DNA of 20,684 nucleotides from a virus (IMGVR_UViG_3300045738_002243:1-20684), one strand, 5' to 3'. Positions 1,043-20,333 are shown, counted from the first letter of the stretch. Numbers and translations: made by a program. The notes: generated from the sequence alone by a model not told the origin.

Positions 1043-1069
1043 AATAAATAAAGTAAGTCTAAGGTTATC

Positions 1070-1459
1070 TCAAAGGCCGATATATAGTGCCTGAATTATT
1101 CCACCCGCGGAAGTGGCTTCCAATGGGAGGAAGTTATGCGTGAGGGCCGTGGGAGTCCCCTTCGCCGCGGCGAGTCCGCCGGCTCCGAGATTGTGAGGAT
1201 GACCAATTGCCGCGATACCGGCGCCAGTAAGAACGTTGATGTTGAAGATGCCCCCACCTTGAAATAATTGGATGGCTGCCGGAGTGCCAGAGTCATCGGA
1301 ATCCACGTCGTGAAGAACGACTCCGAAACATGCTCCCGAGGCGACTCCCGACGCTCCCTTTACTACTCCACCAGTAGTGGTGTTAAGGGCGACCACGTCA
1401 CCCGCCACGAGGGCAGTGGACGTGTGAACCGGCAATGAAATAACAGTATTATGATTCAT
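1070..1459 (-). CDS. small head decoration / DUF2190-like protein
   Basis: This 129-residue protein is rich in Gly, Ala, Val and Thr, with short predicted beta strands such as LVAGDVVAL, CFGVVLHDV and GIFNINVLTG. That pattern is typical of small capsid-decorating or head-fibre proteins (DUF2190/gpD-like), which sit on the outside of the capsid. The gene lies between the protease/scaffold gene (18-base gap) and the major capsid gene (27-base gap), the same place as lambda gpD. The ATG at 1459 is preceded by GGAG about 11 bases upstream. The family call rests on composition, size and position, not on a diagnostic motif. An unrelated head-completion protein would be the alternative. Confidence 0.65.
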   Translation of the reverse strand: MNHNTVISLPVHTSTALVAGDVVALNTTTGGVVKGASGVASGACFGVVLHDVDSDDSGTPAAIQLFQGGGIFNINVLTGAGIAAIGHPHNLGAGGLAAAKGTPTALTHNFLPLEATSAGGIIQALYIGL

Positions 1460-1477
1460 AGTATAAAAGTCTCCAGA

Positions 1478-2578: not shown

Positions 2579-3036
2579 AGTTTTAATCTCCAAGGCACCT
2601 TTGCTCTACCAAATACCCCCGACGCGAGCTTTCTGAGACCGGAGTTAGGTTCCCATTTGGGCTTTGCGCTGGCGTCACGACGCTTTAGCGTCATGTCTAA
2701 TTTTTTTGAAAGTTTCTTTTCAGCTTCCTTTTGCGACTTCGTTCCGGAGTGGGGATTCTTCGTATTCCCCTCCACGAAGTCAGGATCAGAAATGTAATCG
2801 CCCGGGTTCTCGGGAGTACCTTGCCAAGCTTTTGCTTTCGCCATGCCTTCGTTATACGCCTTCGCCATTGATTTTTCGGCGTAGTCTTTTCTTTGTCCCG
2901 TATGGGCCGCCGAAATATACGCCGCGGACAATCCACCCCCTCCGGCGACCGCTCCAGCCGTCAACATGGCGTTACGCTTTCTATCATCCCCATACGCGTG
3001 CTTGTGGGAATCTTTTTTAGGTCCCGGCTTTCTCAT
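2575..3036 (-). CDS. basic Gly/Ala-rich structural protein, function unknown
   Basis: This 153-residue protein has a Lys/His/Arg-rich N terminus, then one Gly/Ala-rich hydrophobic stretch at residues 23-44 (core TAGAVAGGGGLSAAYISAA), then a charged Lys-rich remainder. I do not recognise a family. It overlaps both neighbours by ATGA junctions (3036-3033 and 2578-2575), so it belongs to the head operon and is probably translationally coupled; no strong Shine-Dalgarno is seen at its own start. The single glycine-zipper-like segment plus high basic charge links it to the other unusual proteins of this operon (3033-3974, 3940-5466, 7038-7937, 10852-11571). A role as an internal or ejected virion protein is inference only. 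Confidence 0.75.
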   Translation of the reverse strand: MRKPGPKKDSHKHAYGDDRKRNAMLTAGAVAGGGGLSAAYISAAHTGQRKDYAEKSMAKAYNEGMAKAKAWQGTPENPGDYISDPDFVEGNTKNPHSGTKSQKEAEKKLSKKLDMTLKRRDASAKPKWEPNSGLRKLASGVFGRAKVPWRLKL

Positions 3037-3974
3037 GCCATTTGATCTTTGGCGCTGTTGTCAGCACCGGATTGCTTCTTCTTCTTCAGAGCCAACTCCG
3101 CTCTCCTTTGCTGCGCCTTTGGAGTGGCTTGATATTTTCTATCCTTATCCGCCTTCACTCGTTTGAAAACCTCTCCAGCCTCACCCGACTCGGGATCTCT
3201 TAAGGCTTTGTTCTTGGCTTTCTCGCGAGCGAGCGCCGTTGCCCGCTTCTTCGTGCTTTTATCGAGCATCCCTTTAGTCGCCTCAATCGTTCCCTTTTGG
3301 TCTTTGAGTCGTTTCAACTTGAGTCGATTCCCTTTAAGCCCGGCGATCGCGACGATACCAGCCGCCAGCGTCCCGCCAATCCCGGCTTTTATAAAGTTAT
3401 TCTTGGCTTCCGTGGTTTCGTACCACTTCTTGTCGCGCCGATCTCTAGCCTTTTTTCCTATATGAACGCGTACGGAAGATCCCGTGGGTCGTGAAGTTCT
3501 CCAGTTTTCCTTATCGTCCAAGCCCAATGCCTTCGCGACGTCTAGCTCGATTCTCTCTTCCAAATTATTGAGATACGTTTTCCCGACCTTATTCACGAAA
3601 TCCCGGCTCTCTTCCTTGCTTCCCAAGAATACTTTGCTTTTGCCCACCTTGTAAGCCCCATAGAGTAAAGCCGTGAGCGCTCCCGCGGTCGCCGTATCCT
3701 TGAAGGCTTGCTTTTGCCAAAAGCGTTTTCTGCGCTTATTCGAGCGCACGCCTTTCTTTACTTCATAAATATCATGAGCCGCGTCACCGAGCTTGCGTCC
3801 GGTACGTACGTTTTTCCTTACTTTATTAAAGGCTGCGCGCGCTTGCGCGGGATTGACGTCCTCAAACTCGATCTCGAATGGATTCGGTCCACGCCTCATC
3901 TCATACTCAGCCACCTTGAGCCCGAGTTCATTCAGTCCCTTACTTACTAGCTTTTCTTTTTCTGAGTTTGTCAT
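3033..3974 (-). CDS. basic protein with two Gly/Ala hydrophobic segments, putative internal virion protein
   Basis: The 313-residue product is strongly Lys/Arg-rich and has two hydrophobic segments, at about 94-112 (TATAGALTALLYGAYKVG) and 195-213 (FIKAGIGGTLAAGIVAIAG). A basic loop of about 80 residues separates them and the C terminus is highly basic (from about 215). No known family is recognised. The ATG at 3974 has AGGA 7 bases upstream and lies 35 bases inside the end of the upstream gene; the stop overlaps the next ATG as ATGA. Its position between portal and protease is where lambda has no such gene. Membrane-active or DNA-binding ejection proteins would fit the composition, but this is inference; a minor head protein is equally possible. 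Confidence 0.75.
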   Translation of the reverse strand: MTNSEKEKLVSKGLNELGLKVAEYEMRRGPNPFEIEFEDVNPAQARAAFNKVRKNVRTGRKLGDAAHDIYEVKKGVRSNKRRKRFWQKQAFKDTATAGALTALLYGAYKVGKSKVFLGSKEESRDFVNKVGKTYLNNLEERIELDVAKALGLDDKENWRTSRPTGSSVRVHIGKKARDRRDKKWYETTEAKNNFIKAGIGGTLAAGIVAIAGLKGNRLKLKRLKDQKGTIEATKGMLDKSTKKRATALAREKAKNKALRDPESGEAGEVFKRVKADKDRKYQATPKAQQRRAELALKKKKQSGADNSAKDQMA

Positions 3975-5466
3975 ATCCGTGTCCTACAAGTGCTCCAGCT
4001 CCAGCTCCTCCTAAAATCCTCAACAAGCCCCCACCATAGAGGGCCGTATTAAGTTTCACTCTACTGCGCGGTGTCATCCCGCGCTTTTTCAAAACCCTAT
4101 CTCTAAGGTTAACGTCCTTGTGCCGCACATAGGCCGCTCCCGTTCCTATAGCTCCACCAACTCCAGCTCCGGCGTAAATCGCCTTGCGATCCTTTTTCCC
4201 TTTCTCGAAGGCTATAATTCTAATCTTCGCGGATAGCTTAGATACATCGGGATCAAACCTGCTTTGAGCGCTTCTCTTATGGGAGGCAAGGAGGCTCGCT
4301 CCCTCCTGAATAGCTTTCGCCCTTTCGCCCTCCGGCACATGCTTGTCGAATCCCCCCCTTGGGATTGCGTATTTCACTTCATATGCGCCTTGAGCTCCCT
4401 TTATCTCGGTACTCGTTGGCACGTTTTGAGATTTAGGAGTTTTTGGCGTTTGTGGCATTGGTCCCTGCTTAAGCGCGGCTGGCTTGGCCGCTTCTTGCAG
4501 TTTTTTCCATGCCGTCCCCGACTTTATGGCCTTGCCCGCGTGACGATGCGCCTTCGGATAGCGCCCAAAGGGTGCGTCGTCGTCGCGACCGGCTTTTCTT
4601 TTATCGCCTGCGGTTTCCTCTCCGCGCCGTTTTTTTGCGGTTCCCGCGACTCCGGGGTTGTTGCCAAGTAAGTTTTGGGATTTATTCGCCTTGTTTATCC
4701 CCCCTTGACCCCACTCCTTCTTGAATTTTTTAGAGATTTCCTTGAGCGAGCCATCTTTATCTGGATCGTTCTCCATTCCCAGCCAATCACCGACCCGTCC
4801 ACCCTTGCCGTCATCTTTAGTGAAGCCATTGTTTTCTGCGATTATTCTTTGCAACTTGCCTTTGGGGGGTATCGGATCACCATCGGCAATCTTTATCCCG
4901 AAGTTTTTATTTAAGTTCGCTCGTATGTTCTTTTGAAATTCCTGATTGCGATCGACTTCGTGGGCATCTCGCTTGGCGTTGGTCCTCCGCGCCGTTTTCT
5001 CCTTCTGGAGACCCGCGTAAACGGTGTCTTTATCCGCCAATTCCTTCGCCCTTTGGTTCTTCTTCGCGGTCGCGTAATATGATCTCGTTCTCGCCCTAGC
5101 CGCGGGATCTTCTTGAATTTTCGCCATATCCACCCCGCCCCAGTAATCCTTGAACGTTACGCCCTCTACATCAATATCGGCTTCTCCCCCAGCTCCTCCA
5201 GCGAGGCTCGCATAATTCGCCATCTCCTTTTCGGTAAATGGTTCGTCGTTCCCTATCTCGGAAGCGACTACCGCACCTCCTCCAGCCGAAGCGGCGAGAG
5301 CGGCGGCTCTCGTGTTTTCTTGATCTATAAGAGCATCACTCTTCTTGTAGTGCTTATCTATATAGTGTTCACCCGTAGGGGTCTTCAGGGACTTCTTCGC
5401 TCTGCGATGAAAGCTGGTACGCCTAAGAGACGTTATATTTTGCAGAAAATTACCTACGGCGCTCAC
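3940..5466 (-). CDS. large basic glycine-zipper protein, putative internal virion protein
   Basis: This 508-residue protein starts at a GTG (5466), supported by AAGGGA just upstream; it overlaps the portal gene's end by 17 bases. It has an Ala/Gly segment at 54-70, a long Lys-rich middle (about 130-350, with a Pro-rich patch near 336-350) and two C-terminal glycine-zipper segments at about 429-447 (AIYAGAGVGGAIGTGAAYV) and 474-496 (core LRILGGAGAGALVGHGY). The tail is very basic. The stretch LSAKIRIIAFEKGKKDRK at 411-428, just before the first C-terminal segment, resembles one in the protein at 10852-11571. No known family is recognised. The operon context implies a head or head-associated protein. 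Confidence 0.77.
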   Translation of the reverse strand: MSAVGNFLQNITSLRRTSFHRRAKKSLKTPTGEHYIDKHYKKSDALIDQENTRAAALAASAGGGAVVASEIGNDEPFTEKEMANYASLAGGAGGEADIDVEGVTFKDYWGGVDMAKIQEDPAARARTRSYYATAKKNQRAKELADKDTVYAGLQKEKTARRTNAKRDAHEVDRNQEFQKNIRANLNKNFGIKIADGDPIPPKGKLQRIIAENNGFTKDDGKGGRVGDWLGMENDPDKDGSLKEISKKFKKEWGQGGINKANKSQNLLGNNPGVAGTAKKRRGEETAGDKRKAGRDDDAPFGRYPKAHRHAGKAIKSGTAWKKLQEAAKPAALKQGPMPQTPKTPKSQNVPTSTEIKGAQGAYEVKYAIPRGGFDKHVPEGERAKAIQEGASLLASHKRSAQSRFDPDVSKLSAKIRIIAFEKGKKDRKAIYAGAGVGGAIGTGAAYVRHKDVNLRDRVLKKRGMTPRSRVKLNTALYGGGLLRILGGAGAGALVGHGYDKLRKRKASK

Positions 5467-7069
5467 TTTTTCCCTTCGCTATTGCTTTCGCGTCAGCCAT
5501 GAGCTTTTGAGTCTCGGCGTTCGTTTTCTGAACTTCAGCTTGACCTTGGGCTTGCTCAAGCGGATCTCCCTGCTCGGGTTGCATTAGTTGCTGGTAATTG
5601 GCGAGCATTTGGGTTCCTCCCTCTAATCGCTGAGAGATCATTTCGATGGGAACTCCATATTTTTGAGACATATCGGCGATATAGCGAATTTCCTTCGCCA
5701 TCTTTTCCGTCTCTTCTTCAAAATCCAAGCCGAGTTCACCAAGGATAGCCTCATGGGTTTTCATGCCAGCCTGTTGCATTGACAGATTCGACTGAGTCTC
5801 GTTCCCGAGATCCGCGGTAATCTGTGAATTGAACTGCCACTTGCCCGTTCTATAGTTTGGAACGGCCGGTAGTTTCCTGAAAGCTATTGCTCTGGCGATT
5901 ACGGCGTTCTTAATGGGATTCAGAACCTTTTCCTGTAAAATTCTTTGATGTCTCTCGAAGGCGCGTTGAGCTTGCTGGACTTCCAGCCTCGCGGTGACCC
6001 CACCAAACTGACTCATGTCCCATACGAACGCGTAGGGGAGATTCAGTCCATTGGCCATTTCCCTCACTAGGGTCGAAATAAAACCATTAAACGTGGCTGA
6101 AGGTCTACTGTTCGTGGGAAACATCGTAATTCCATCACCGGGGGCGAGTCTTACGATTTTGCCGGGTATGGTCTTTTCGAGCTTTTTGGGATCAAGCGTC
6201 CCCGCGTCTTTTTTCGTGGTCCACTTATCGGGACCAGGATCAGCCTTGGTTATGACTCCCGCATGTGACGCTCCCCACTTAACCGCCTGTTTCTCCATAG
6301 CCAGCAATTCATATAAATCGCGGGCGTGCGGTATGGCGGTTTCAAATGCCGTGATACCCCGATATTGATCGGTGCGCATGGGGTCGAAGTAGTGAACGAA
6401 GTTGGAGGCTGGGATTTCCCTTGGCTGTTCATATTGTCCATGAATGGTTCTTTTATATATCCTATAAGTTAAAGGCTGACCCAATTCGTTTAAGGTGATT
6501 CCGCCTATATAATTATTTTCCTTATGGTGCTTGTGCGGATGACCCAACCTATCGGCTTCTACGCATTGTAGGACAAGATCATCTCCGTGGGTCACCATGG
6601 CGAACCCGAAGTCCCCATCTCGCCTCATGCTCATGTGGGCGAGCTGAATAAGCTGAATAAAGCTATGCCTTCCCGTTAAATCGCATCTCTCCGTCCACTC
6701 CTTCCAGTAACGCTCATACTCGGCGTCTACTTCCGGGTTCCCGGTCTGCGACTGATATCGCATAGATCCCGCGACGTACATGGATTCCTTCAGGAGAATG
6801 CTCTTAAAGAAAGAATAATTCATGCAAAGATTGCGAGCTTCAGCCATGAGCTTCAGTCGGTCTCTTTGATTCGCCAAGCTTTCGCTGGCGCTATTTGTCA
6901 TCAGTCCCCCGACGCTTTCGCGAAAGCGATCGGGCTTCGCTCCATCATAGCCAAACTCCAGCAGATTCTTATAATACTGGCGCTTCAGTTGATATTCCGG
7001 GGCGATGAAGCCCAAGGTCTTATCGAGCCAATTGGGGCTATTTGCGCTTTCTTTTTTTCCTTCGTCCAT
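5450..7069 (-). CDS. phage portal protein, lambda gpB type
   Basis: The product (539 residues from ATG 7069) forms the dodecameric portal at the capsid vertex through which DNA enters. Visible lambda-family features are YDGA near residue 41, the helix-rich wing with LMAEARNLCMNYSFFKSIL, the core RRDGDFGFAMV, VEADRL, the HYFDPMRTDQYRGIT block, and NLPYAFVWDMSQ with the following Gln/Arg-rich helix. Length matches lambda gpB (533). I chose ATG 7069 because AAGGA lies 8 bases upstream; an upstream GTG at 7111 has no site and would add 14 unlikely residues. The C terminus is Gln/Ala/Lys-rich. The start lies 32 bases inside the preceding gene and the stop overlaps the next gene by 17 bases, so translation is probably coupled. 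Confidence 0.92.
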   Translation of the reverse strand: MDEGKKESANSPNWLDKTLGFIAPEYQLKRQYYKNLLEFGYDGAKPDRFRESVGGLMTNSASESLANQRDRLKLMAEARNLCMNYSFFKSILLKESMYVAGSMRYQSQTGNPEVDAEYERYWKEWTERCDLTGRHSFIQLIQLAHMSMRRDGDFGFAMVTHGDDLVLQCVEADRLGHPHKHHKENNYIGGITLNELGQPLTYRIYKRTIHGQYEQPREIPASNFVHYFDPMRTDQYRGITAFETAIPHARDLYELLAMEKQAVKWGASHAGVITKADPGPDKWTTKKDAGTLDPKKLEKTIPGKIVRLAPGDGITMFPTNSRPSATFNGFISTLVREMANGLNLPYAFVWDMSQFGGVTARLEVQQAQRAFERHQRILQEKVLNPIKNAVIARAIAFRKLPAVPNYRTGKWQFNSQITADLGNETQSNLSMQQAGMKTHEAILGELGLDFEEETEKMAKEIRYIADMSQKYGVPIEMISQRLEGGTQMLANYQQLMQPEQGDPLEQAQGQAEVQKTNAETQKLMADAKAIAKGKSERRR

Positions 7070-7937
7070 TTTTGCTATCCTTATAGTATGCGTGTCCGGC
7101 GACCCCGCCACCGCCCACGGCCAATCCCGGAGCTATCATGGCGTGTTTAGCGTAGGATTCGCCAACCACGGATTTATCCACTCGTAGAGAAGATATGTAC
7201 TTCTTTTCATTCGCCGTCAAATCTTTCGCCGCGGAGGCCTTTCTTATTGAATCATAATATCCCCCACCGTCTCGCTTGCTGCTGATCCTTTCCATTCGGT
7301 CGGTGAACGCTTTTCGGCCATCTTCAAAAGTATCCCTGCTTTTTTCGGCAATTCGCTGACCCGTCTCGGCCTTCTTCGCTCTTTGTTGAAGATCCGGGTT
7401 GTTTTGATTTTTATTCGCGACGTCCCTCATTTTGCCAGCGTGCACGCCCTTTTCCCACGCAACGTCTTGGCGTCTTTTCGAGTTTTCCCAGTTCCAATGA
7501 TCGTGGGCGGTCTTCTTTCCCTCTCTGAATTTCTTATAATGATCGGAGCTAAATTTATCCGCCTTCGCGATTTTGCGATCCATCCATGGTTTCGTGACTA
7601 CGTTCGATCCCGCCTTCTCCGCTCCCGACATATAATCCGCGATAAACTTCCCCTTGTCTTCCGTCGTTTCCCTACCCGCCTTCGTGGAAGCATCATCCAT
7701 GCGCGTTCTCTTTGCTATCTTCGATTCCCCCGAAGGAGCTTTCTTGAGCCTTTCCTTTAGACCGGCGGTAAGACCCTTAGCTCCGCGTACTAAATCGCGT
7801 CCTTTCATCTTCAAAAAGGGAAAAGCGGCGGGCATAGCAAGCATACCCGCTGCGGCGGCGGTATGACCCACTATCTTTTGCTTCGTTCTCTTTTCCTTCT
7901 CCTTCTTGGAGAACTCGAATATGCTATCTAGGCTCAT
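7038..7937 (-). CDS. basic protein with terminal Gly/Ala segments, putative internal virion protein
   Basis: From ATG 7937 the product is 299 residues. It begins MSLDSIFEFSKKEKEKR, then a hydrophobic Ala-rich segment at 22-43 (core TAAAAGMLAMPAAFPFL), a long charged and probably helical middle, a second Gly-rich hydrophobic segment at 266-285 (core APGLAVGGGGVAGHAYY) and a very basic end (GRRKKRKRK). No family is recognised. The ATG forms an ATGA overlap with the upstream stop and has GGAG 9 bases upstream, the same arrangement as the protease gene; a TTG five codons earlier overlaps that site and is rejected. The gene sits directly before the portal. Its architecture resembles the proteins at 3033-3974 and 3940-5466. 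Confidence 0.77.
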   Translation of the reverse strand: MSLDSIFEFSKKEKEKRTKQKIVGHTAAAAGMLAMPAAFPFLKMKGRDLVRGAKGLTAGLKERLKKAPSGESKIAKRTRMDDASTKAGRETTEDKGKFIADYMSGAEKAGSNVVTKPWMDRKIAKADKFSSDHYKKFREGKKTAHDHWNWENSKRRQDVAWEKGVHAGKMRDVANKNQNNPDLQQRAKKAETGQRIAEKSRDTFEDGRKAFTDRMERISSKRDGGGYYDSIRKASAAKDLTANEKKYISSLRVDKSVVGESYAKHAMIAPGLAVGGGGVAGHAYYKDSKNGRRKKRKRK

Positions 7938-8200
7938 GGTCGCGAACTCCAAAGACTGTTTTCTCCAGAAAAATCCGTATAAGTTTCTTCATAATAATCC
8001 TTATTCCCCTGCTCTCTGCGAATTTCCTTGATTGCTCTCAATCTTTCCTCGATAGTAGTGATGGATCTTTGGTAATTCTTTGATCCCACGGCCTGAGATA
8101 AATAAATATTGCGAGCTTCCTTCTTAAAGAAAACTTCCTCTTCGTCAAGTTCCACCGCCGTGAAATCTCGATAAATAACTCTCCAATTCGATACCGCCAT
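7934..8200 (-). CDS. small protein before portal, possible head-tail connector
   Basis: This 88-residue, charged, mostly helical protein has a beta-like start (WRVIYRDFTAVELDEEEVFF) and a helix with IEERLRAIKEIRREQ. Size and place (upstream of the portal, on its strand) match lambda gpW, the head-tail joining protein, but no diagnostic residue confirms this, so gpW-like is a guess from position. The ATG at 8200 has a strong site AGGGG 8 bases upstream, which directly abuts the start codon of the divergent gene at 8214. The stop overlaps the next gene as ATGA. It is the first gene of the leftward portal-to-capsid run, so a leftward promoter should lie inside the divergent gene unless transcription comes from 13.2 kb. 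Confidence 0.72.
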   Translation of the reverse strand: MAVSNWRVIYRDFTAVELDEEEVFFKKEARNIYLSQAVGSKNYQRSITTIEERLRAIKEIRREQGNKDYYEETYTDFSGENSLWSSRP

Positions 8201-9133: not shown

Positions 9134-10855
9134 TTGGTTGAAGAGACGGCGAGAGCCGCTTGGAAGCCCGCCGACAGGCGACCGCCTTGGAAGTGGGCGG
9201 AGACTAATTTTAGGGTCGCGGTTTCTCCATTCCCCGGCATGTGGCGTTCCGACAACTCACCTTGGGTTCGAGAATTCATGGAAGACTTCGCCGATAATAA
9301 GTTGCGGAGCATATCGGTTATGTGTTCCGCTCAATCAGCGAAGACCGAAACCATGCTGGCGTTACTCGCGTGGTTGATCGCCGAAGATCCCGGTCCCACG
9401 ATGTGGGTCACGGCGAATGAGGATGAGGCCCTCAAGTTTTGCACCGAGCGCTTAATGCCAAGCCTTAGAAACTGCCCATTGGTCGCGAAAAAGATCCCAA
9501 AGAGCGTTAGATTGGCCAAAGCGAGGGAAATATTCTTCCCCGGCATGGCGCTTGAGGTGCTAGGGGCGAATGCTCCATCCAAGCTTCAGTCGAAGCCACG
9601 ACGCTGGTTACTGCTGGATGAGGTGAGGAACTGGCCCCCCGGCGCGTTGCCCATGGTTCTCAAGAGAACCCGAACCTTCTGGAACGCGAGACAATGCATA
9701 ATCTCCACTCCCGGCTCCCAACATGATCACGTTCACCAGAACTTCCTTTCCGGAGATCAAAGAGAATGGCAAGTCAAATGCCCAAAATGCAAAAAGGATC
9801 ATAAATTGGATTGGGAGTTCATGCGATGGGACTCAAATGAAAAGACCAAGCCAAAGGGGCGCTATGACTTCGATAACTTGTCTCGCACGATTCGCATGGA
9901 ATGCCCCGACTGCGGATACCAAACCAAGGATACGCCAAGTGAGCGACGTCGATTGACCAAGGGTAGGTGGGTGGCGCAGAATCCCGGATGCCCCTCCAAT
10001 CGCAGATCGTATACGTGGAACGCCATTCTCCCCACTTGGGTTCCTTGGAAAGAGCTCGTGGAAGAGTTTCTTTCGGCAAAGAAAGCCTTGAGCTGGGGCG
10101 ACCCGGAACCACTTAAAACTTTTATAACGGAATCTCTCGGACAGCCGTGGGAGGACAGGCTTAAGTATGGCGATAAAGATTACTTGTATGATAGACGAGA
10201 AGATTACGAGCTTCTGGAAGCGTGGGGCGAGGAAGATAGAAGATTCTTGGCGGTAGACGTTCAGTTGGATCATTTATATTACGTATGCCGAGCGTTTGGC
10301 AAAAACGGATCAAGCAGACTGATTGACAATGGAAAGATCTTCGACTTCGACGAACTCAAGGAAAAGATACGCCAATTGAACGTCGACGCCGACGACGTAT
10401 GCATCGACTCGGGATATAAGGCGTCGGCCGTATACAATGAAGTAACCAAGTCCGATTATACGTGGAAGCCATTCAAGGGGGATGACTCAAAGTTTTATAT
10501 GGTGGATGGCGTTCGCCAAATATGGAAAGACGTGCTCATAGACCCGGCGATAGGCACGGCCTTGCAGGGGAGCGTGCGACCACTACGGTTATTCCATTTC
10601 AGCAATCCAGCCGTAAAGGATTTGCTGACCGAATATATTCAGGGCATAGGACCGGTATGGACGTTGCCCAGCAATATCTCAAAAGACTATGAAAGCCAAA
10701 TGAAAGCGGAGCATCGAGATGAGGTCGTCAACGCTTATGGGGAGATCACGTATAAGTGGGTGAATAAGCCCCGAAGACCTAATCACTACTGGGATTGCGA
10801 GTGTATGCTGACTGTCGCCGGCCTCGTAACCGAGTGTCTCGGCTTGGGCGCTTAA
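9134..10855 (+). CDS. terminase large subunit, lambda gpA type
   Basis: This 573-residue protein is the motor and nuclease that packages DNA into the prohead. The N terminus carries the family's WAETNF...SPFPGMW block (residues 21-37). A Walker A-like loop SAQSAKTE is at 65-72 and Walker B LLLDE at 159-163. A zinc ribbon is formed by C216/C219 and C257/C260. The nuclease domain has acidic residues D374 (LAVDVQ), D425 (VCIDSGY) and D554 (HYWDCE), plus HRDEVVNAYG near 527. The start is TTG at 9134: an in-frame stop at 9110 leaves no ATG before residue 36, and starting there would remove conserved sequence. No good Shine-Dalgarno is seen, so coupling to the upstream gene is likely. It is on the strand opposite to all other head genes. 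Confidence 0.95.
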   Translation: MVEETARAAWKPADRRPPWKWAETNFRVAVSPFPGMWRSDNSPWVREFMEDFADNKLRSISVMCSAQSAKTETMLALLAWLIAEDPGPTMWVTANEDEALKFCTERLMPSLRNCPLVAKKIPKSVRLAKAREIFFPGMALEVLGANAPSKLQSKPRRWLLLDEVRNWPPGALPMVLKRTRTFWNARQCIISTPGSQHDHVHQNFLSGDQREWQVKCPKCKKDHKLDWEFMRWDSNEKTKPKGRYDFDNLSRTIRMECPDCGYQTKDTPSERRRLTKGRWVAQNPGCPSNRRSYTWNAILPTWVPWKELVEEFLSAKKALSWGDPEPLKTFITESLGQPWEDRLKYGDKDYLYDRREDYELLEAWGEEDRRFLAVDVQLDHLYYVCRAFGKNGSSRLIDNGKIFDFDELKEKIRQLNVDADDVCIDSGYKASAVYNEVTKSDYTWKPFKGDDSKFYMVDGVRQIWKDVLIDPAIGTALQGSVRPLRLFHFSNPAVKDLLTEYIQGIGPVWTLPSNISKDYESQMKAEHRDEVVNAYGEITYKWVNKPRRPNHYWDCECMLTVAGLVTECLGLGA

Positions 10856-11571
10856 CGACCGAATATTCTCTTAATTCCCGAGCCGACCAAGCTGGACGCC
10901 TTATGACCAAGCCCAGCTTTGCCTAATCCCGGAACCTTATCCACTTTCCTGAGATTCGACTGAACCGCGCTTCCGAAGCGACCGGCGGAACTTTGGCCCT
11001 TCCAGCCCTTGACCCTTTTAGCCATTCCCGCCTTTTGATCAGCGCTTCCTTTGAAGCCTTCCGCGGCTTTATCAAATCTACCGGCTCTGGAATCGTATGC
11101 CGATTTCGCAACGAGCGCACCCGTGCCGACCGTGGCGACGCCCGCTCCCAGCTTGGCACCCTTCTTCAAAACTCCATCTTGTTGCTGTGGAGCGTAAAAC
11201 TCGATAAGCTCACGGGTGCGGGCAGACATCCTTGAATACTTTCCGCCTCCCTTGTCGCTCGGAAGACTCTTTGAGGATGGAAGATCAGCGTGATGGGTGT
11301 CTTTTAGCCTATAATTCTGATCTTGCATCAGCTTTTTCATTCTCAGCCTATTATGCGCCAAGGTGCGCTCATAGGTATTCACTCCCGAACCAGAACCTCT
11401 CACCTTCTTCTTTCCGCGTTTGGCACCGTGCCGCGCATGGCGAATAGCATGGTCACGAATCCCAAATTCCTCCATCTCCTCCGCGAGTCTTTCGCCTCGG
11501 AACTGGATAACCTGATCTAAATCCGCATCTAGTTGTATGATGCGCGCGGCAATTTCTCGTTCAGTCGTCAT
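10852..11571 (-). CDS. basic glycine-zipper protein with LIEF motif, putative virion protein
   Basis: The 239-residue product has an acidic helical N terminus (1-38), a His/Arg/Lys-rich stretch (40-58), then MSARTRELIEFYAPQQQ at 115-131 leading into a Gly/Ala segment at about 140-158 (KLGAGVATVGTGALVAKSA) and a Gly/Lys-rich basic C terminus. The block SAxxRxxIxF followed by a glycine zipper also occurs in the protein at 3940-5466. No named family is recognised. It lies 15 bases after the gene at 11587-12552. Its TAA stop shares the palindrome TTAA (10852-10855) with the stop of the convergent large-terminase gene. No Shine-Dalgarno is evident, but the octamer GTTGACAT sits 12 bases before the ATG. 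Confidence 0.75.
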   Translation of the reverse strand: MTTEREIAARIIQLDADLDQVIQFRGERLAEEMEEFGIRDHAIRHARHGAKRGKKKVRGSGSGVNTYERTLAHNRLRMKKLMQDQNYRLKDTHHADLPSSKSLPSDKGGGKYSRMSARTRELIEFYAPQQQDGVLKKGAKLGAGVATVGTGALVAKSAYDSRAGRFDKAAEGFKGSADQKAGMAKRVKGWKGQSSAGRFGSAVQSNLRKVDKVPGLGKAGLGHKASSLVGSGIKRIFGR

Positions 11572-11586
11572 AACAATAAATTGATG

Positions 11587-12552
11587 TCAACCGTGCCATC
11601 TCCCCCTGAGGGCAACCTTGATGGCCCCCAATGAAAGCTTGCGAATGGCGCTTTTGGCTTCCTTCGTCGTGTTGTGCGGAGTCTTTGGCGAGTTTCTCCA
11701 TGCTTTCACCAGCCCTCGCTGGGCATCTTTATCGAGACTCGAAAATGGCTTCGCGTCGTCCATGATGGGCTTCGGGACGTTCGCGCCGCGATGAGACCTA
11801 TCGTGAAGGGGGGTGTTGGGACGATCCTTTGGACCTCGCTTCTGGCGACGAGTCTGAACCTTCTTTGACGGCAGCGTTTCCTTGCCTGTCACCCGCGGGT
11901 GACGCGGGTTTTTGGTCTTCTCGACCATGGGTAATCCGCTCTCTATTTTGCCAGCCATACGGCTGTCACGCGCCATTCGCCTAGTTTGTTTAAGGGTTTT
12001 GCCGGGCAAGCTTTGTCCCGCTTCCTTTTTTGTCTTAAGCGCGGCCCTACTGATATCCTCCGTGGTGGGATTTGGATTTTTTGAAATCGTAACGTTCGGA
12101 CCATGCCTATGCTGGTCCTTCGCTCGCTTGATCACGTTCTTATGCGCCTGTTCATTTTCTTGAGCCGCAGATTGGCGAACGGCCTTTACCCTAGCCTTAT
12201 CCAGCATGGCTTTCGTATCTGGATCGGGAGTTTTTCTATTTTGCGTAGCCCGCCGCGCACGCGCTTTGCCCGCATCCTCGCGGACGTTTTCGCTTTCAAT
12301 CGCTTTTTTCTTCTTCTCACTCCTCTTCTTATTCTTCTTTCGCGTACGCGCGCCCTTACGAGCCGCCTTGCTCCTCTTGGGATCGGCGAACTCCATTAGC
12401 CGTTCAAACGACGCGAAGCTGACTGAAAATTCCTTTATCCTCTTGTGGAGGCACGTACCTCTCGCCCTGCATATAGCCGTGGTCTCCTTGTTCTCACAGG
12501 TAGTGCACGTTTTGAACGTGGGATTTTCTGGAAGTGGCTCTACGTTTTGCAT
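11587..12552 (-). CDS. hyperbasic protein with N-terminal Cys4 cluster
   Basis: The 321-residue product has C16, C19, C28 and C34 (plus H36) in its first 40 residues, spaced as a small zinc-binding knuckle. SFASFERLMEFADPKRS follows at about 45-61, and the rest is an Arg/Lys-rich, low-hydrophobicity, probably disordered chain of about 260 residues. No family is recognised. Such composition suggests nucleic-acid binding, for instance DNA condensation in the capsid, but this is inference. It lies between the small terminase (18-base gap) and the gene at 11571. No Shine-Dalgarno precedes the ATG; GTTGACAT lies 15 bases upstream and overlaps the small terminase's stop. The LMEF motif links it to the other unusual virion candidates. 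Confidence 0.72.
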   Translation of the reverse strand: MQNVEPLPENPTFKTCTTCENKETTAICRARGTCLHKRIKEFSVSFASFERLMEFADPKRSKAARKGARTRKKNKKRSEKKKKAIESENVREDAGKARARRATQNRKTPDPDTKAMLDKARVKAVRQSAAQENEQAHKNVIKRAKDQHRHGPNVTISKNPNPTTEDISRAALKTKKEAGQSLPGKTLKQTRRMARDSRMAGKIESGLPMVEKTKNPRHPRVTGKETLPSKKVQTRRQKRGPKDRPNTPLHDRSHRGANVPKPIMDDAKPFSSLDKDAQRGLVKAWRNSPKTPHNTTKEAKSAIRKLSLGAIKVALRGRWHG

Positions 12553-12570
12553 TACATAGAACGCGATATG

Positions 12571-13143
12571 TCAACTGCCCTCGTGTAGCCTAGTCAGGAT
12601 CTCGTCCACCGTATCCTTAAGCCTGACTTCGGCTTCCGCGGGGGTTAGACCTATTACTATGGGGGCGAGCTTCGACGGCATGGCGAGTAATATCGTCTTC
12701 GCTTCCATTATCATTTCCCCCACCCATCGCTTGACGTCGTCATTGGATGAGAAGTCTCCCTTTTTGGCGTTCAGCTCGAACTCCAATTTATCGCACATGA
12801 GCTGGAGTTGCCTGATCTTTAGCTCATGCAAGCTCGGCTCATCTATTATATTGGTCTTTTTATTCGCCCTGCACCAAACGTGAAGGGCGTGAACGTCCCA
12901 TCTTCCGTTCGCTAGTGACTTGGGGAAGCCGGGTTCCTTCCTCCATCGCTGTATCGTCTTGCGATCGACCTTGAATATCGTCGCCAGCTCCGTCTGATTC
13001 TTCGCGAAGCGAGGCAGATTCTCCACTCCCATCGAGAGAACTTCATCCGTCAGCACTTGGTGAGCCCGGGTCAAGTCTTCATCCGACACGGTTTCGCCAT
13101 CCTCCATTTTCTGAAGGATATCTTTCGCCCATTTTATAGACAT
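12571..13143 (-). CDS. terminase small subunit, Nu1 type
   Basis: The 190-residue product should bind the packaging site and recruit the large subunit. A winged helix-turn-helix spans about 48-92 (TELATIFKVDRKTIQRWRKE, then GFPK...GRWDVHALHVW), the classic Nu1-type reader with the GRWD wing. A helical region follows: LHELKIRQLQLMCDKLEFEL, KKGDF at 127-131, then MEAKTILLAMPSKLAPIV, all characteristic of Nu1-like and related small terminases. Length is close to lambda Nu1 (181). It is the first leftward gene after the 0.5 kb gene-free region, so the packaging site may lie just upstream as cos does in lambda. No Shine-Dalgarno is visible before ATG 13143. It is encoded on the opposite strand from its large-subunit partner, 1.7 kb away. 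Confidence 0.88.
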   Translation of the reverse strand: MSIKWAKDILQKMEDGETVSDEDLTRAHQVLTDEVLSMGVENLPRFAKNQTELATIFKVDRKTIQRWRKEPGFPKSLANGRWDVHALHVWCRANKKTNIIDEPSLHELKIRQLQLMCDKLEFELNAKKGDFSSNDDVKRWVGEMIMEAKTILLAMPSKLAPIVIGLTPAEAEVRLKDTVDEILTRLHEGS

Positions 13144-15092: not shown

Positions 15093-15391
15093 GCGCTTGC
15101 AGTAACTGCTCCCTCGATGACGGGAGCACGGCTTTGGATTGGTCGGAGATGGGTTGCCACTACGATGGTGTTGAGGAGACCAGCGGTAATCGCCCATCGG
15201 ACGCCGACATCCAAGACGTCGTCGAGACCCAGCTGCGAATGTCACGCCGAGTGGGATGGGACAACGGTAACGACTTCCGCGCACTAGCGAAGGGTCACGA
15301 GGAAATGGAGGATGTTCACCTGCGGTATTACCCCGGATGGAAGCGGTGTGACTTCCAGCGCGTAGTAGACGCATTGGAATCCGCGCAATGA
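15089..15391 (+). CDS. small hypothetical protein
   Basis: This 100-residue acidic protein starts MSACSNCSLDDGS and has three Cys in its first 23 residues (C4, C7, C23) plus one near the C terminus (RCDFQR region), which could bind a metal, although spacing matches no motif I know. The C-terminal half has HLRYYPGWKRCDFQRVVDALE. No family is recognised. It is joined by ATGA overlaps to the gene before (15089-15092) and to the deformylase after (15388-15391), so coupled translation is expected; neither junction has its own strong ribosome site. Its existence is supported mainly by these junctions and by continuous open reading in the operon strand. Confidence 0.72.
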   Translation: MSACSNCSLDDGSTALDWSEMGCHYDGVEETSGNRPSDADIQDVVETQLRMSRRVGWDNGNDFRALAKGHEEMEDVHLRYYPGWKRCDFQRVVDALESAQ

Positions 15392-16095
15392 GCGCGCAAC
15401 CTCCGGGTTGGTGCGGCGGTCCCGACGGAGGGACGCCGTTCGAGGACTACGACGACGCCCTTCGCGCAGGTGAGGAGGTATTGCCTTGCGACGCAAGCGC
15501 AAGTATGAGCGGCACGGAGTTCGTTCCGGATCTCGTCACCGTGCTACCCGCGCGGAATTGGCGAGCGATAGGAGCGCATCCCAGACCGTATCCCGGCTTC
15601 ACGGTTGAGAAATCCCTCGCATTGGAGAACCCATGCAGCGGATACGACTTTGACGGATTAGTGACGCCGTCATCGCTCGGGCAGAAGGACGCCAAAGGGG
15701 AGTTCTTCGACCCCTCCTTCGTCAATGGACCAAATCACGGGATCACGTTTCTCGGAAGCGTGGCGGGCAGTGAGGCGACGGGGATCGCTTCTCCGCAATT
15801 GGGGATGGTCTCCCCGTGGTTCATCGCGTGTGATACATTCAAGACACACGTTTTCAGGAGACCTCACATCGTCAAATTCTACGGGAAGGAGGAGTACGGC
15901 ATCGAAGGGTGCCTATCCATCCCGGACGAGAAGTTCGAGGTGTTGCGCCACACGAAGGTGGATATCGAGTACCTCGACGAAGACGGGGAACTCCGCAAAA
16001 TGTTGGTAAAACGGAACGCCCTCCTCGCGAGGGTGATTCAACACGAGTTCGACCACCTCTGTGGCGTGCTCATTTCACGAGGACACAAGGTATGA
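15388..16095 (+). CDS. peptide deformylase with extended N terminus
   Basis: The product removes the formyl group from N-formylmethionine of nascent proteins. All three family motifs are present: motif 1 as ATGIASPQLG at 130-139 (canonical GxGLAAxQ, here with Ala and Ser replacing one Gly and one Ala), motif 2 EGCLS at 173-177 and motif 3 QHEFDHL at 218-224. The metal ligands C175, H219 and H223 and the catalytic E220 are intact, so activity is likely. It is 235 residues long; in E. coli PDF motif 1 begins at residue 43, so this one carries about 85 extra N-terminal residues of unknown role. An internal ATG at codon 40 would still leave a long extension. ATGA overlaps join it to both neighbours. 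Confidence 0.93.
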   Translation: MSAQPPGWCGGPDGGTPFEDYDDALRAGEEVLPCDASASMSGTEFVPDLVTVLPARNWRAIGAHPRPYPGFTVEKSLALENPCSGYDFDGLVTPSSLGQKDAKGEFFDPSFVNGPNHGITFLGSVAGSEATGIASPQLGMVSPWFIACDTFKTHVFRRPHIVKFYGKEEYGIEGCLSIPDEKFEVLRHTKVDIEYLDEDGELRKMLVKRNALLARVIQHEFDHLCGVLISRGHKV

Positions 16096-16304
16096 ATGAG
16101 GAAGATGTAGTCGCCCTTTGGGCGCGCAACAAGTATCCGGAGGCATGGAATTTGCCAATGGATATCGAAACGGGATTCGGCTGGGACGTACGGGATCGCG
16201 TACGGAAGCCGAAGCCCGACAAACGGGCGAAAGCCAACACGAAGGGGCGCAAGCCCTACGATGCGCGGATAATTCGCGCACATAAAATGAGAGGAATAGT
16301 ATGA
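16092..16304 (+). CDS. small basic hypothetical protein
   Basis: The 70-residue product begins MNEEDVVALWARNKYPEAW and ends in a Lys/Arg-rich stretch. No family is recognised. Although the frame is open far upstream inside the deformylase gene, I place the start at ATG 16092: it overlaps the deformylase stop as ATGA (16092-16095), AAGG and GAGG lie just upstream, and the stop at 16304 again overlaps the next ATG as ATGA. The N terminus (EEDVVALWARNKYPEAW) reads like a small adaptor or a hypothetical early protein; any function is unknown. Position suggests co-translation of deformylase and the CobT-like protein through this gene. Confidence 0.7.
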   Translation: MNEEDVVALWARNKYPEAWNLPMDIETGFGWDVRDRVRKPKPDKRAKANTKGRKPYDARIIRAHKMRGIV

Positions 16305-17596
16305 AAACATATATACCATATATCTACGACGGCACGGAAGTTCCGAATCCGTCGTTCTTCGATCACGCACCCAGCGTGCTTCCCGCACGCTTCAAGAAAC
16401 GGATTCAAAATAAGTTCGATTACCGTTGCACGAAGGACTTCGACGCCCGCGCCATCCTTGGCTACGCTCCGGGCGTAGGCACGGCGTTCTGGAAGAACAA
16501 TCCTGACGGCACGCTGTGCGAAATCAAAATCCACGAGCAGATCCTTAATACGGTCAGCTCGTTCGGAGTCGGCGGTGCCGTACACTCCGGGATCGGAACT
16601 CCAGCCAACGAAAGGGACTTCATGAACCAAATCACGAAGCCGGGTCTCTTGGGCGTGCGCACCTGCGAACATGAAGGATTCCACGAGATGCTCACGACGT
16701 GGGACATTCAGCGCTTCATGAACACCGATCCCAAGGCGGGCGGATATGGATCAGCGGACGCCAATCGTCTGGAAGACGCTCGTATTGAGGATCTCGGTCG
16801 CCAGAAACGCCCCGGCAAGCCGTGGCTCAATCGAGATGGTCACGAATACACCGTTCCAGCCAAGGGTGACGGTGGGACTTACGGCATTCGCAAGTTCGAC
16901 TGGTGGATGTGGACGGCGTTGAACGTGACGTCACCTCGGGCGATGCTCATGTCGTTCATCACCGCCGAACAAATAAAGCCCATCATGGATAAGTTGATCC
17001 ACGTGTTCCAATTCGTTCACTCGAAAAACACGACCATATTGGGGAATCCCGACGTCGACCCGACATGGATCACGCCCGCCGGTCATCATACCGGATATCG
17101 GGACATCTGGCGCTTCTATAAACGAGCGACCAATGCGAAGGTGATTAAGACGTCGCATGATCTGCATCCCATCCTCTGCGAGTTCAACGAATGGTATCCA
17201 GCCCGCGAGGAAGAGAAAGGCGGAGGAGGAGGCGACGGCAAATGTGGCGGTCGTTTCGGGGACATCGAGGCGAAGGCGAAGGAAATGGGCATTGAAGTCC
17301 ATTCTGGAAAATCCGAAGAACCCGAACCCGAACCCAAGGGAGAGACGGAGAAGGAGCAAGTCCACGATAACCAAGGCGAGAAGGAATCCGAGGCGACAAG
17401 GGCTAAGGACATGTCGGAACACATATCCGAAGCGGAACTGGAACCCTGCAGGGAACAGGCGGTCGACCCAAGGGGTGACTATGAGAACGATGGGAAAATC
17501 TACCCGAAGACATACTTCAAAAGGGTAGTGAATGCGACCACGATTAAGGCGCATTTCAACATGTCAGCGACGCGCGCGTTGCTGGATATAAAATAG
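16301..17596 (+). CDS. CobT-N-like protein with HExxH motif and acidic tail
   Basis: The 431-residue product has HEGFH at 124-128, a putative zinc-metallopeptidase HExxH, followed by NRLEDARIE at 155-163. That pairing, HExxH then 'N.LEDaRIE', is characteristic of the CobT N-terminal region and of phage 'CobT-like' proteins. Residues 200-300 are helical and aromatic-rich (WWMWTALN, FQFVHSKN, FNEWYPAREEE). Residues about 302-385 form a Gly- then Glu/Lys-rich linker, as precedes the VWA domain in full CobT; here the chain ends after 46 further residues without a VWA domain. That domain is encoded separately at 19641. AGAGGA lies 6 bases before the start, which overlaps the upstream stop as ATGA. 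Peptidase activity is not established; cobalt chelation is unlikely without other cobalamin genes. Confidence 0.75.
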   Translation: MKTYIPYIYDGTEVPNPSFFDHAPSVLPARFKKRIQNKFDYRCTKDFDARAILGYAPGVGTAFWKNNPDGTLCEIKIHEQILNTVSSFGVGGAVHSGIGTPANERDFMNQITKPGLLGVRTCEHEGFHEMLTTWDIQRFMNTDPKAGGYGSADANRLEDARIEDLGRQKRPGKPWLNRDGHEYTVPAKGDGGTYGIRKFDWWMWTALNVTSPRAMLMSFITAEQIKPIMDKLIHVFQFVHSKNTTILGNPDVDPTWITPAGHHTGYRDIWRFYKRATNAKVIKTSHDLHPILCEFNEWYPAREEEKGGGGGDGKCGGRFGDIEAKAKEMGIEVHSGKSEEPEPEPKGETEKEQVHDNQGEKESEATRAKDMSEHISEAELEPCREQAVDPRGDYENDGKIYPKTYFKRVVNATTIKAHFNMSATRALLDIK

Positions 17597-17606
17597 GAAC
17601 ACGAAA

Positions 17607-17846
17607 ATGATTAAGATTCGAACGAGTAAAGACGCGGAGTTCAGAACTCTGAAAATATATATCGGATGGGGGCGTACGCGCCTTCGTTTGGTCTTCGTGG
17701 TCGGAAGACGACAATTGACTAGCGATGAGATCCGCTTCGAGCTGGGATGGAATCGACCTCGTCCCATAGCGCGCCCGGAGGGCAGGGCGGAGTTCTGCTT
17801 CGTCACGATGGATCGTGACGTTTGGGCAATGAACACTCACAGATGA
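17607..17846 (+). CDS. small hypothetical protein
   Basis: This 79-residue basic protein has alternating hydrophobic strands (LKIYIGWGRTRLRLVFVVG, then AEFCFVTMD) suggesting a small beta-rich fold. No family is recognised. The ATG has AGGA 8 bases upstream, and the 12 bases ACACGAAAATGA at its start are identical to those at the gene at 13648. It follows the CobT-like gene after 10 bases and precedes the coiled-coil gene by 16 bases. It is inside the putative ATPase-VWA module and may be an accessory part of it. Confidence 0.66.
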   Translation: MIKIRTSKDAEFRTLKIYIGWGRTRLRLVFVVGRRQLTSDEIRFELGWNRPRPIARPEGRAEFCFVTMDRDVWAMNTHR

Positions 17847-17862
17847 ATACGGAGGAACAGGT

Positions 17863-18315
17863 ATGAAGAAATGGGAATACAAGAAAGCCCTCTTGGAAGC
17901 GGGGGTGGAAATGAACCGCCTTCGTAAAGAGGTCATCCAGCTCAGGGCGCGCTGTTGGGATGAAAGCGCGGCAGTCAGGAACAGAATATTCGATTCTCGA
18001 CACGGGCTCAACCGCGAAGGGGAGGAACAACAATCCTTCGCTGGGGAAACCCACGTCGCCGAAACGTTGCGCCACGACGTCATAGCCGAGCTGGATCGGC
18101 GGATCGCACAGCTTGAGGAGGACGAAAGTGTTTTTCAGAAACGCCTACGCGCTCTTGAAGTTCACCGTGACAGGATACTCCACGAGATGGGCGTCGCCCA
18201 GCATGATTTGGATAAGTTGAACATCAGAGTAACGACAATAATGAAGGAAGTGATTCCGAAGTTGAAGGCAATGCCGACACACACGCGCGCCTCCAACGCA
18301 AAAAAAGGGAAATAA
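17863..18315 (+). CDS. putative coiled-coil protein
   Basis: The 150-residue protein is charged and almost wholly helical. Heptad-like hydrophobic spacing is visible at about 8-30 (LLEAGVEMNRLRKEVIQLRAR) in short form and again at 70-135 (AELDRRIAQLEEDESVF, then KRLRALEVHRDRILHEMG and LDKLNIRVTTIMKEVI). It has no membrane segment or catalytic motif and I recognise no family. A strong ribosome site GGAGG lies 8 bases before ATG 17863. It ends 3 bases before the AAA+ gene, so a scaffold or adaptor role in the same complex is plausible but only inferred. Confidence 0.74.
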   Translation: MKKWEYKKALLEAGVEMNRLRKEVIQLRARCWDESAAVRNRIFDSRHGLNREGEEQQSFAGETHVAETLRHDVIAELDRRIAQLEEDESVFQKRLRALEVHRDRILHEMGVAQHDLDKLNIRVTTIMKEVIPKLKAMPTHTRASNAKKGK

Positions 18316-18318
18316 ATA

Positions 18319-19641
18319 ATGGAAGTACAAATACCGGTTGAATCGTTTCGAGCCGCTCTCAAAGAGGATCTCGACAACATCAAGGACATCGGTGAGAAAC
18401 TCGCCGATACCACCGCTCGGACAAAAAGCGGATTCGAGGAAATCGCCAAGGATATAGCCGTCTTAAGCGCATCCCATGCCGTTATCGTAACCGATTTGGC
18501 AGGTGGCGGTGGCGGTGGAGGAGAGGTGGATACCGATGCCATCGCCGCCGCGATCGTCAAGGAGGCGAAGGCAAGCGGGGTGGTGCTTGGCGCGTGCCTT
18601 GCCGTATTGACCAAGAAGGGGCGAGGAACTAAGCTCGAAAAGGCTTGCGCGGACCTAATACCGCCAGGTTCCACCTTTCTGTGCCTTCTCTTCGAGGGCG
18701 GAAAGGGTTCTGGCAAAACATACCAGCTCACGCGTTGGTTGGCGAAGATATACGGAGAAGAAAACGTCTTCCGAACGGATTGCGACAGCACGTTGCGCAC
18801 TCCCGACATGCGTGGGCATCCTTGCCCCGAAGGAGACGGAACGCCGGCGTTGGGTTGGATTGATAAGACGGCATCTCAGGTGTTTCGTCACATCAACAAA
18901 AATCGCGTACCCACGGCATGGATGCTGGATGAGTTGCTCGCCCTTCGCGAGGATACCATGAACTCGTTCAAATCCATGCTGTCACCGACGGATTACGATA
19001 CCGGCGATGGGCTTGAGCCTCACTACCGCCTTGAAACTGGCAAGCCAATTGGGGCTACCGGTCACAAGACGTCTGAGGTTCTATACATTCCCGCGCGTCT
19101 GCTGGCAATCGCCGGCACCACCAATCGGGGATCTCGCTACTTCATCAATGAGATGGATGAGGCGATGGAGAGTAGATGGAGGATCGTCACCATCGAGTGC
19201 ACGGAAGGCGATATCGCGAAGATATTCGCAATCAAATGCATGGAGCATCAAGCTCGATACGGATTGGAATGGTCGGCGATGGAAGTGGAGATGATGTGCC
19301 ACTTCGCCAAGCGATTCTTCGTCCACGCCTTGAAGGCATCGAGGAAGAACGAGCTGAAGACGTATCCATCGAATCGGGAGTTTAGCAATCTCCTCAATCC
19401 TTGCACGAAAGAACCGCGTGATTTTCTCGTGGCGTTCGAGAGCAAGGCGTCGAACCATCTATACGATGCTCATCGCTACTGCTCGAAGGATGGGAACGGG
19501 ACGCCGATTAAGCAACACGTCCAGAATCTGAAGAACGTATTGAAGGCGGTGAAGGATGAGTGCATCGCGAAAGCCGACGAACTCGCGCTCGACGCGCCCC
19601 AAAAGGACGGATGGAAAGAGTCCCTGTCGAGGATCGGATAA
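18319..19641 (+). CDS. MoxR/CobS-type AAA+ ATPase
   Basis: The 440-residue product has an N-terminal helical region (1-60), a run of seven glycines at 62-68 as a linker, then an AAA+ core. Walker A is GGKGSGKT (127-134), Walker B WMLDE (201-205), sensor 1 contains N269 in AIAGTTNRG, and SRWR at 285-288 fits the MoxR/CobS arginine finger region. The C terminus is helical and carries no further domain. CobS-type ATPases act as hexamers with a VWA partner, here encoded immediately downstream; the CobT-like gene lies 722 bases upstream. AGGG lies about 10 bases before the ATG. Its stop overlaps the VWA start as TAATG. ATP hydrolysis is expected; the substrate remodelled is unknown. Confidence 0.86.
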   Translation: MEVQIPVESFRAALKEDLDNIKDIGEKLADTTARTKSGFEEIAKDIAVLSASHAVIVTDLAGGGGGGGEVDTDAIAAAIVKEAKASGVVLGACLAVLTKKGRGTKLEKACADLIPPGSTFLCLLFEGGKGSGKTYQLTRWLAKIYGEENVFRTDCDSTLRTPDMRGHPCPEGDGTPALGWIDKTASQVFRHINKNRVPTAWMLDELLALREDTMNSFKSMLSPTDYDTGDGLEPHYRLETGKPIGATGHKTSEVLYIPARLLAIAGTTNRGSRYFINEMDEAMESRWRIVTIECTEGDIAKIFAIKCMEHQARYGLEWSAMEVEMMCHFAKRFFVHALKASRKNELKTYPSNREFSNLLNPCTKEPRDFLVAFESKASNHLYDAHRYCSKDGNGTPIKQHVQNLKNVLKAVKDECIAKADELALDAPQKDGWKESLSRIG

Positions 19642-20333
19642 TGCCGGCGGGATTCTGGGACGCGAACGGACCATGGGTGGATGAGAATATCCAGCGCTTC
19701 CAAAAGGCGCTTTGCTCGAACGAAGAAGAGTTCGACAACTCATGGTCCGCGCCGAATCTCGACGTTCGAGCAATATGCCATCTCGACATGCAGGGATACC
19801 TGAGCGGTCCAGCGACTCGATCGCGTGGGGCTTCCGTATACGTGGTATTCGATACGTCCGGATCAATGGGAGGCAACCACATGGAGGACGGTTGCGCCAT
19901 AATGGCGATATTCAACGCCCTAGCGCGAAAGAAGATCATTGATTTTCACTTCGTGGCGACGGGATATACTCGCCGGCTGGGAGAGAAGTATAATTGCTGG
20001 TATAACAAAGGTATACCGCTAGAAGATTGGTGCTGGGAATCCATAGACGCTTGGCATGGGACGGAGGGAATCTCCCAATCCATGACCAAGACGAAAGCCG
20101 CCTTATTGAAGGCGGATCTCGCGTTTGCATACACCGATGCGTGCATTTGCGACGTGGACCTCAAGCCTTCGCTATGGAGGGATAGCGGGAAGACCGTAAC
20201 TGGTCTCTATAGCGGGAGTGAAGCACAAGAAAAGCATATGAAGGAATATTTCGACGACGTAATCGCGCGTCCAAATAAAGAAGAACTGGCGGAGGCGGTA
20301 TTACACCTCATCCGCGCAAAACAAAAAGGATAA
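19641..20333 (+). CDS. VWA-domain protein, CobT C-terminal-like
   Basis: The 230-residue product has a VWA (Rossmann-like) fold. The MIDAS motif DTSGSM is complete at residues 71-76 after the strand SVYVVF. A second strand follows (IIDFHFVATGY), then HGTEGIS around 139-145 and YTDACICD at 164-171, supplying the Thr and Asp of the metal site. VWA proteins of this kind pair with MoxR/CobS ATPases and use a metal ion to bind a ligand. I place the start at ATG 19641, which overlaps the ATPase stop (TAATG) and has GAGGA 7 bases upstream; an in-frame GTG at 19560 is rejected. It is the part that is missing from the CobT-like protein at 16301. Confidence 0.85.
   Translation: MPAGFWDANGPWVDENIQRFQKALCSNEEEFDNSWSAPNLDVRAICHLDMQGYLSGPATRSRGASVYVVFDTSGSMGGNHMEDGCAIMAIFNALARKKIIDFHFVATGYTRRLGEKYNCWYNKGIPLEDWCWESIDAWHGTEGISQSMTKTKAALLKADLAFAYTDACICDVDLKPSLWRDSGKTVTGLYSGSEAQEKHMKEYFDDVIARPNKEELAEAVLHLIRAKQKG

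Follow-up and report, generated by a model that had tools for sequence, protein, structure and literature searches.

Many cyanophages have genes called CobS and CobT in their core set, and these are commonly presented as vitamin-B12 auxiliary metabolic genes. The DNA analysed here (the window, the whole 20.7-kb virus record) carries CobS/CobT-like parts on three separate genes. The question is whether these parts belong to a cobalamin chelatase or to a machine that acts on proteins.

The three genes and their neighbours

The window is a tailed-phage fragment, in which terminase, portal and head genes were recognised from open reading frames and searches. The large terminase (9134-10855) is encoded on the plus strand and the flanking head and other genes (2-7952 and 10852-13143) on the minus strand. 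This unusual strand layout is also kept in the relative contig described below. Lys/Arg-rich proteins of unassigned role are encoded among the head genes on the minus strand (3033-3974, 3940-5466, 7038-7952, 10852-11571, and 11587-12552), and some of them contain a short hydrophobic Gly/Ala stretch.

At the right end of the window, three genes lie on the same strand in the order HExxH N-half, AAA+ ATPase and VWA protein (Table 1). The stop codon of the ATPase and the start codon of the VWA gene share one base in a TAATG junction, in the window and in the relative alike. The initial annotation had described a protein with HEGFH, NRLEDARIE and an acidic linker but no VWA domain, then a MoxR/CobS-type ATPase, then a free-standing VWA protein in which DTSGSM is intact. 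All three descriptions were borne out, and a gene omitted there was found between the first and second members of the trio.

Table 1. Positions and features of the genes compared in this study
Gene or locus	Record	Position	Strand	Features
Putative N-half of phage-type CobT-like protein	window	16301-17596	+	431 aa; HEGFH, NRLEDARIE, Gly-rich/acidic linker, no VWA
Intervening charged, probably helical protein	window	17863-18315	+	150 aa
MoxR/CobS-type AAA+ ATPase	window	18319-19641	+	440 aa; Walker A, Walker B, TTN
Free-standing VWA protein	window	19641-20333	+	230 aa; preferred start codon ATG at 19641; intact MIDAS
Variovorax pair	NZ_LR594667			WP_162571137 AAA ATPase and WP_162571138 hypothetical protein
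HHTV-2 split cobT	NC_021340			gp2 HEVQH/LEDNHID N-half, gp3 VWA, gp10 AAA

A search for the same arrangement in other phages had been proposed with the initial annotation. Among 2.9 million viral contigs, the sole close relative found was IMGVR_UViG_3300046532_004466 (29.7 kb), which encodes all three genes in the identical order with 87-88% protein identity to the window. The dN/dS values between the two contigs were 0.20, 0.16, and 0.18 for the three genes in order, indicating purifying selection. Both contigs are incomplete, and the known close family consists of these two members. Scans of the viral contigs with alignments or with the fused Variovorax protein P0002 gave no further relatives; one scan (A4) missed even the known relative and is therefore uninformative. 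Direct searches of the three proteins against INPHARED phages, Pfam, PHROGs, PADLOC and PDB sequences gave nothing useful. A frameshift or an assembly artefact was considered as the source of the split and was ruled out, because the two halves are separated by the ATPase gene and an independent contig has the same arrangement.

The neighbours of the trio are different in the two contigs. The gene at the intervening position in the relative encodes a protein with no significant similarity to the 150-residue protein of the window (BLASTP E 1.1), and the latter, which is not conserved, probably stands outside the machine. Upstream of the trio, the window encodes a peptide deformylase with a long N-terminal extension (15388-16095, plus strand; Pfam E 3e-19), and no such gene precedes the trio in the relative contig. 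The trio thus behaves as one unit, with its order conserved and its neighbours changing. The gene that stands in for the intervening gene in the relative (133 aa, L003 11517-11918) shares an 18-residue motif, QPxGWCGGPDG, with the first residues of the deformylase (61%, E 9e-7) and is otherwise unrelated to it.

The proteins and the two types of CobT

The ATPase contains a Walker A motif (GGKGSGKT, residues 127-134), a Walker B motif (WMLDE, 201-205) and TTN at 267-269 with a sensor-1-like Asn. It matched the Variovorax plasmid ATPase P0001 (BLASTP E 2e-18), which itself matches AAA_5 (E 4e-11) and the phage CobS family phrog_249 (E 2.5e-13). A direct Pfam search of the window ATPase gave no AAA_5 match, and its assignment to the MoxR/AAA_5 group is made by transitivity through P0001. 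In a tree of the ATPases, it clusters with the Variovorax and Deinococcus homologues with a support of 99/96. A deviating Walker A was noticed in the CobS-like ATPase of HCTV-5 (L013 4767-6104), where GHTGTGKN replaces the canonical motif ending in T or S.

The VWA protein of both contigs has the MIDAS ligands D71-T-S73-G-S75, T141 and D166, of which T141 was assigned by position only; D166 closes a YTD at residues 164-166. The protein matched the VWA half of P0002 with an E value of 3e-17 (BLASTP, 31% identity over 160 residues), and in the VWA tree it is the sister of P0002 with a support of 100/99. Its match to CobT_C was weak and below the cut-off (E 0.013).

In the first protein, HEGFH occupies residues 124-128 (codons 16670-16684) and NRLEDARIE residues 155-163 (codons 16763-16789), and the Gly/acidic linker extends over approximately residues 303-395. 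Both contigs of the split lineage retain HExxH and an LEDxRIE-type motif. Single-sequence searches gave no direct Pfam, PHROG or PDB match, and PF06213, the CobT N-terminal family, did not match at E values up to 1. A comparison with CobT had been suggested initially, and its outcome was divided. A profile built from 20 N-domains of phage-type CobTs matched the first protein with an E value of 0.031 in about 20,800 sequences. The score of the protein was a little higher than those of the chelatase CobTs in the searched set, and it exceeded those of all 20,000 of its own shuffles. On the other side, hhalign of two profiles gave a probability of 21% for the N-domain. When the protein was shuffled 200,000 times, the motif pair, HExxH followed by [LIMVF]E[DE]xRIE or a similar motif, never appeared. 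The first protein also aligns collinearly with P0002 (pairwise z from 1.7 to 3.6), at a score which was reached by 31 of 5000 shuffles with relaxed gaps and by 337 of 5000 with standard gaps, the latter being not significant. AlphaFold models from 2 and 4 sequences reached pLDDT values of 30 and 35, too low to bear on the putative zincin fold. On sequence alone, the N-domain relation is thus weak. Nevertheless, the combined comparisons support the view that the first and third proteins together correspond to a phage-type CobT, each being one half. The initial description of a CobT split in two is thus supported for the phage type and not for the cobaltochelatase type.

This distinction was made with two sets of proteins. 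Twenty-three phage-type CobT-like proteins were collected by tblastn with L006, by the family PF06213, or by adjacency to ATPases, and for the chelatase CobTs 299 Pseudomonadota genomes were searched with PF06213. Of the 23 phage-type proteins, 19 have HExxH at the corresponding place, and none of the 30 chelatase CobTs has it. These 30 are the best PF06213 scorers and, as many are closely related, amount to a smaller number of independent cases. HExxH is likewise missing from four divergent chelatase-like proteins (L062-L065). L066 has one at residue 183, C-terminal to its EQLRVE motif and not at the corresponding place. Because of this contrast, the first protein appears to belong with the phage-type metallopeptidase-VWA/MoxR systems and not with the cobalamin chelatase. 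HExxH is lost or broken in the remaining four of the 23 (nickie, BUCTxx99, L069, and L072) with the rest of the protein kept, and therefore proteolysis may be non-essential to the system. The degenerate forms, SEISK in nickie (L010) and REVST in BUCTxx99 (L018), suggest that catalysis was lost in some lineages. Phage-type CobT-like proteins with HExxH are also encoded in bacterial genomes, possibly by prophages (L067, L068, L070, and L071). They pass the PF06213 cut-off or come close to it, and would receive a cobalamin-gene annotation.

Fused relatives and the origin of the split

Outside the two viral contigs, the nearest relative of the phage trio is found on Variovorax megaplasmids, where two genes encode an ATPase and then a fused HExxH-linker-VWA chain. 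The fused protein P0002 (563 aa) contains HERAH, NLFEDAYIED, the linker and the VWA domain in one chain. Scans of genome contigs for relatives found only Variovorax WDL1, and no other relative of P0002 was found in 399 Burkholderiales genomes. The Variovorax pair is located near exonuclease, Rad52 and SSB genes. Such plasmid pairs of an ATPase and an HExxH-VWA protein are scarcely annotated (L020 8422-11490 in Variovorax, L021 5329-8425 in Deinococcus grandis).

Compared with this pair, the phage proteins resemble two halves that came apart from an ancestor in which they were fused. In the window and its relative, the zincin-like domain and the VWA domain are encoded by separate reading frames with the ATPase between them. 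Since the fused form is general and the phage VWA protein is the sister of the fused P0002, the split is probably the derived state. The one-chain layout is not universal in the phage-type group, as HHTV-2 shows. A split cobT in this halovirus was already noted in PMC8651126. Its gp8 was tried as the N-half and rejected, and the motifs were found in gp2. Constraining the split VWA proteins of HHTV-2 and the window together cost 11 log-likelihood units with a borderline p-AU of 0.044. An independent origin of the two splits is thus favoured by the trees, not proven.

Proposed mechanism, rival explanations and known systems

The reading that we prefer, with a probability of roughly 60%, is that the three conserved genes encode the separated parts of a zincin-VWA and MoxR ATPase system of the phage and plasmid type, which is called phage 'CobT/CobS' in databases. 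In this system, the AAA+ ring and the VWA protein would form a remodelling motor. The MIDAS of the VWA protein would bind an acidic residue or peptide of the target or of a partner subunit, and ATP-driven remodelling would hand the target over to HExxH, here on a protein of its own, much as in the three-part machine put forward in the initial annotation. The HExxH protein may bind Zn2+ through HExxH and an acidic residue of LEDARIE as the third ligand, and would either cut the target or hold it. Because the parts are fused in relatives, the analogy suggests that the separated subunits still cooperate. DNA polymerase, primase, ligase, clamp or Rad52/SSB genes are found near many homologous pairs (ICP2, nickie, SSU5, Syn19, Syn1, RHEph10, BUCTxx99, T5S1, and the Variovorax plasmid); the window itself has no such context. 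Since many relatives stand beside replication or recombination genes, the target may, as a first sensible guess, be a protein related to replication. A broader view is possible, though tentative: phage 'CobST' as a class may be ATP-dependent metalloprotease machines rather than cobalamin chelatases, of which the window phage would have a modular three-subunit form with a separable protease fed by the MoxR-VWA motor.

The function of phage CobS/CobT had been called not known in the initial annotation. Two proposals have in fact been published, neither of them backed by an experiment in the passages concerned. According to PMC8651126, the peptidase label of viral cobT is a mistake and viral CobST would help the host CobN to make cobalamin. 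In PMC7824862, a MoxR-vWA pair whose vWA protein carries an N-terminal metallopeptidase is proposed to be a chaperone for virion assembly. Applied to the window, the former would mean an auxiliary cobaltochelatase, in which the ATPase and VWA protein insert cobalt together with host CobN in B12 synthesis, the N-half representing the N-domain of CobT. The archaeal-virus proposal, the 'porphyrin biosynthesis' label of phrog_249 and the weak CobT_C match speak for it. We nevertheless consider it quite improbable: the first protein has HExxH and no PF06213 match, chelatase CobTs carry a VEQARVE-type motif and have no HExxH in any of the 30 cases, and the neighbours of phage homologues are mostly replication genes rather than cobalamin genes. 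Consistent with the initial annotation, no cobalamin gene was seen in the window, nor in the 29.7-kb relative, both being incomplete. The HExxH contrast also argues against the view of PMC8651126 that the peptidase label is a mistake. The virion-assembly proposal keeps the same machine and changes its target to structural proteins to be assembled and processed. It draws on the jumbo-phage proposal, on an analogy with the tail system of the Acidianus two-tailed virus, and on the head genes (terminase, portal) in the window. In most annotated relatives, however, the pair stands beside replication or recombination and not structural genes, and the homologous megaplasmid pair is near Rad52 and SSB genes, so that we regard this target as unlikely.

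Two other explanations concern the first protein. It could be a non-catalytic substrate-binding or scaffold subunit whose metal site is structural or lost, the module then being a pure ATP-driven remodeller. Chelatase CobT functions without HExxH and the motif has decayed in four phage-type proteins, and yet most of the divergent proteins and both members of the split lineage retain HExxH and the LEDxRIE-type motif; we find this explanation somewhat doubtful. Its CobT likeness could also be due to chance, with an unrelated gene lying beside the ATPase-VWA pair, as the lack of a significant single-sequence match and the modest z values against P0002 would allow. The shuffling results on the motif pair and the profile score oppose this, and the neighbouring ATPase and VWA proteins are homologous to the Variovorax pair, whose fused partner carries the same motif pair. 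A chance likeness is therefore very improbable.

For the separated zincin-VWA and MoxR system, the split form is of practical use, since it sets the protease-like, ATPase and VWA parts apart and each can be expressed and assayed alone. The HExxH contrast likewise opens phage CobT to a point-mutation test.

The locus can be compared with several known systems. Phage 'CobST' (cyanophages, ICP2, SSU5, nickie, RHEph10; phrog_249, 459, 1576, and 17276) has the acidic linker, the VWA domain and the adjacent CobS-type ATPase as in the window, and shares HExxH in most and the LEDxRIE-type motif in many cases. However, its CobT is one chain and is mostly located beside replication genes. Aerobic cobaltochelatase CobT/CobS (PF06213, PF11775) also combines an AAA+ ATPase with a VWA partner, and its N-domain is related to the phage type. 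It differs in having no HExxH, a VEQARVE motif, a fused VWA domain and CobN as the partner. The MoxR-vWA pair of group 2.2 jumbo phages, as described in PMC7824862, has the same three domain types as the window; there the metallopeptidase is fused to vWA, whereas in the window separate genes flank the ATPase. From this domain make-up, the jumbo-phage pair may be the same as phage 'CobST'. The Variovorax pair has a homologous ATPase and VWA domain, the N-terminal HExxH motif pair and the linker, but it consists of two genes with the ATPase first and the zincin-like and VWA parts fused. HHTV-2 encodes the N-half and the VWA protein separately like the window phage; however, its halves are adjacent, the ATPase lies about 3 kb further on, and its VWA protein is placed elsewhere in the tree. 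The fused zincin-VWA and MoxR pair of jumbo phages and the split cobT of HHTV-2 are known already. As a gene layout, the N-half/ATPase/VWA order appears to be new. The system to which it belongs is labelled as vitamin-B12 genes in phage databases but looks, from its sequence, like a protein-remodelling or protein-cutting machine.
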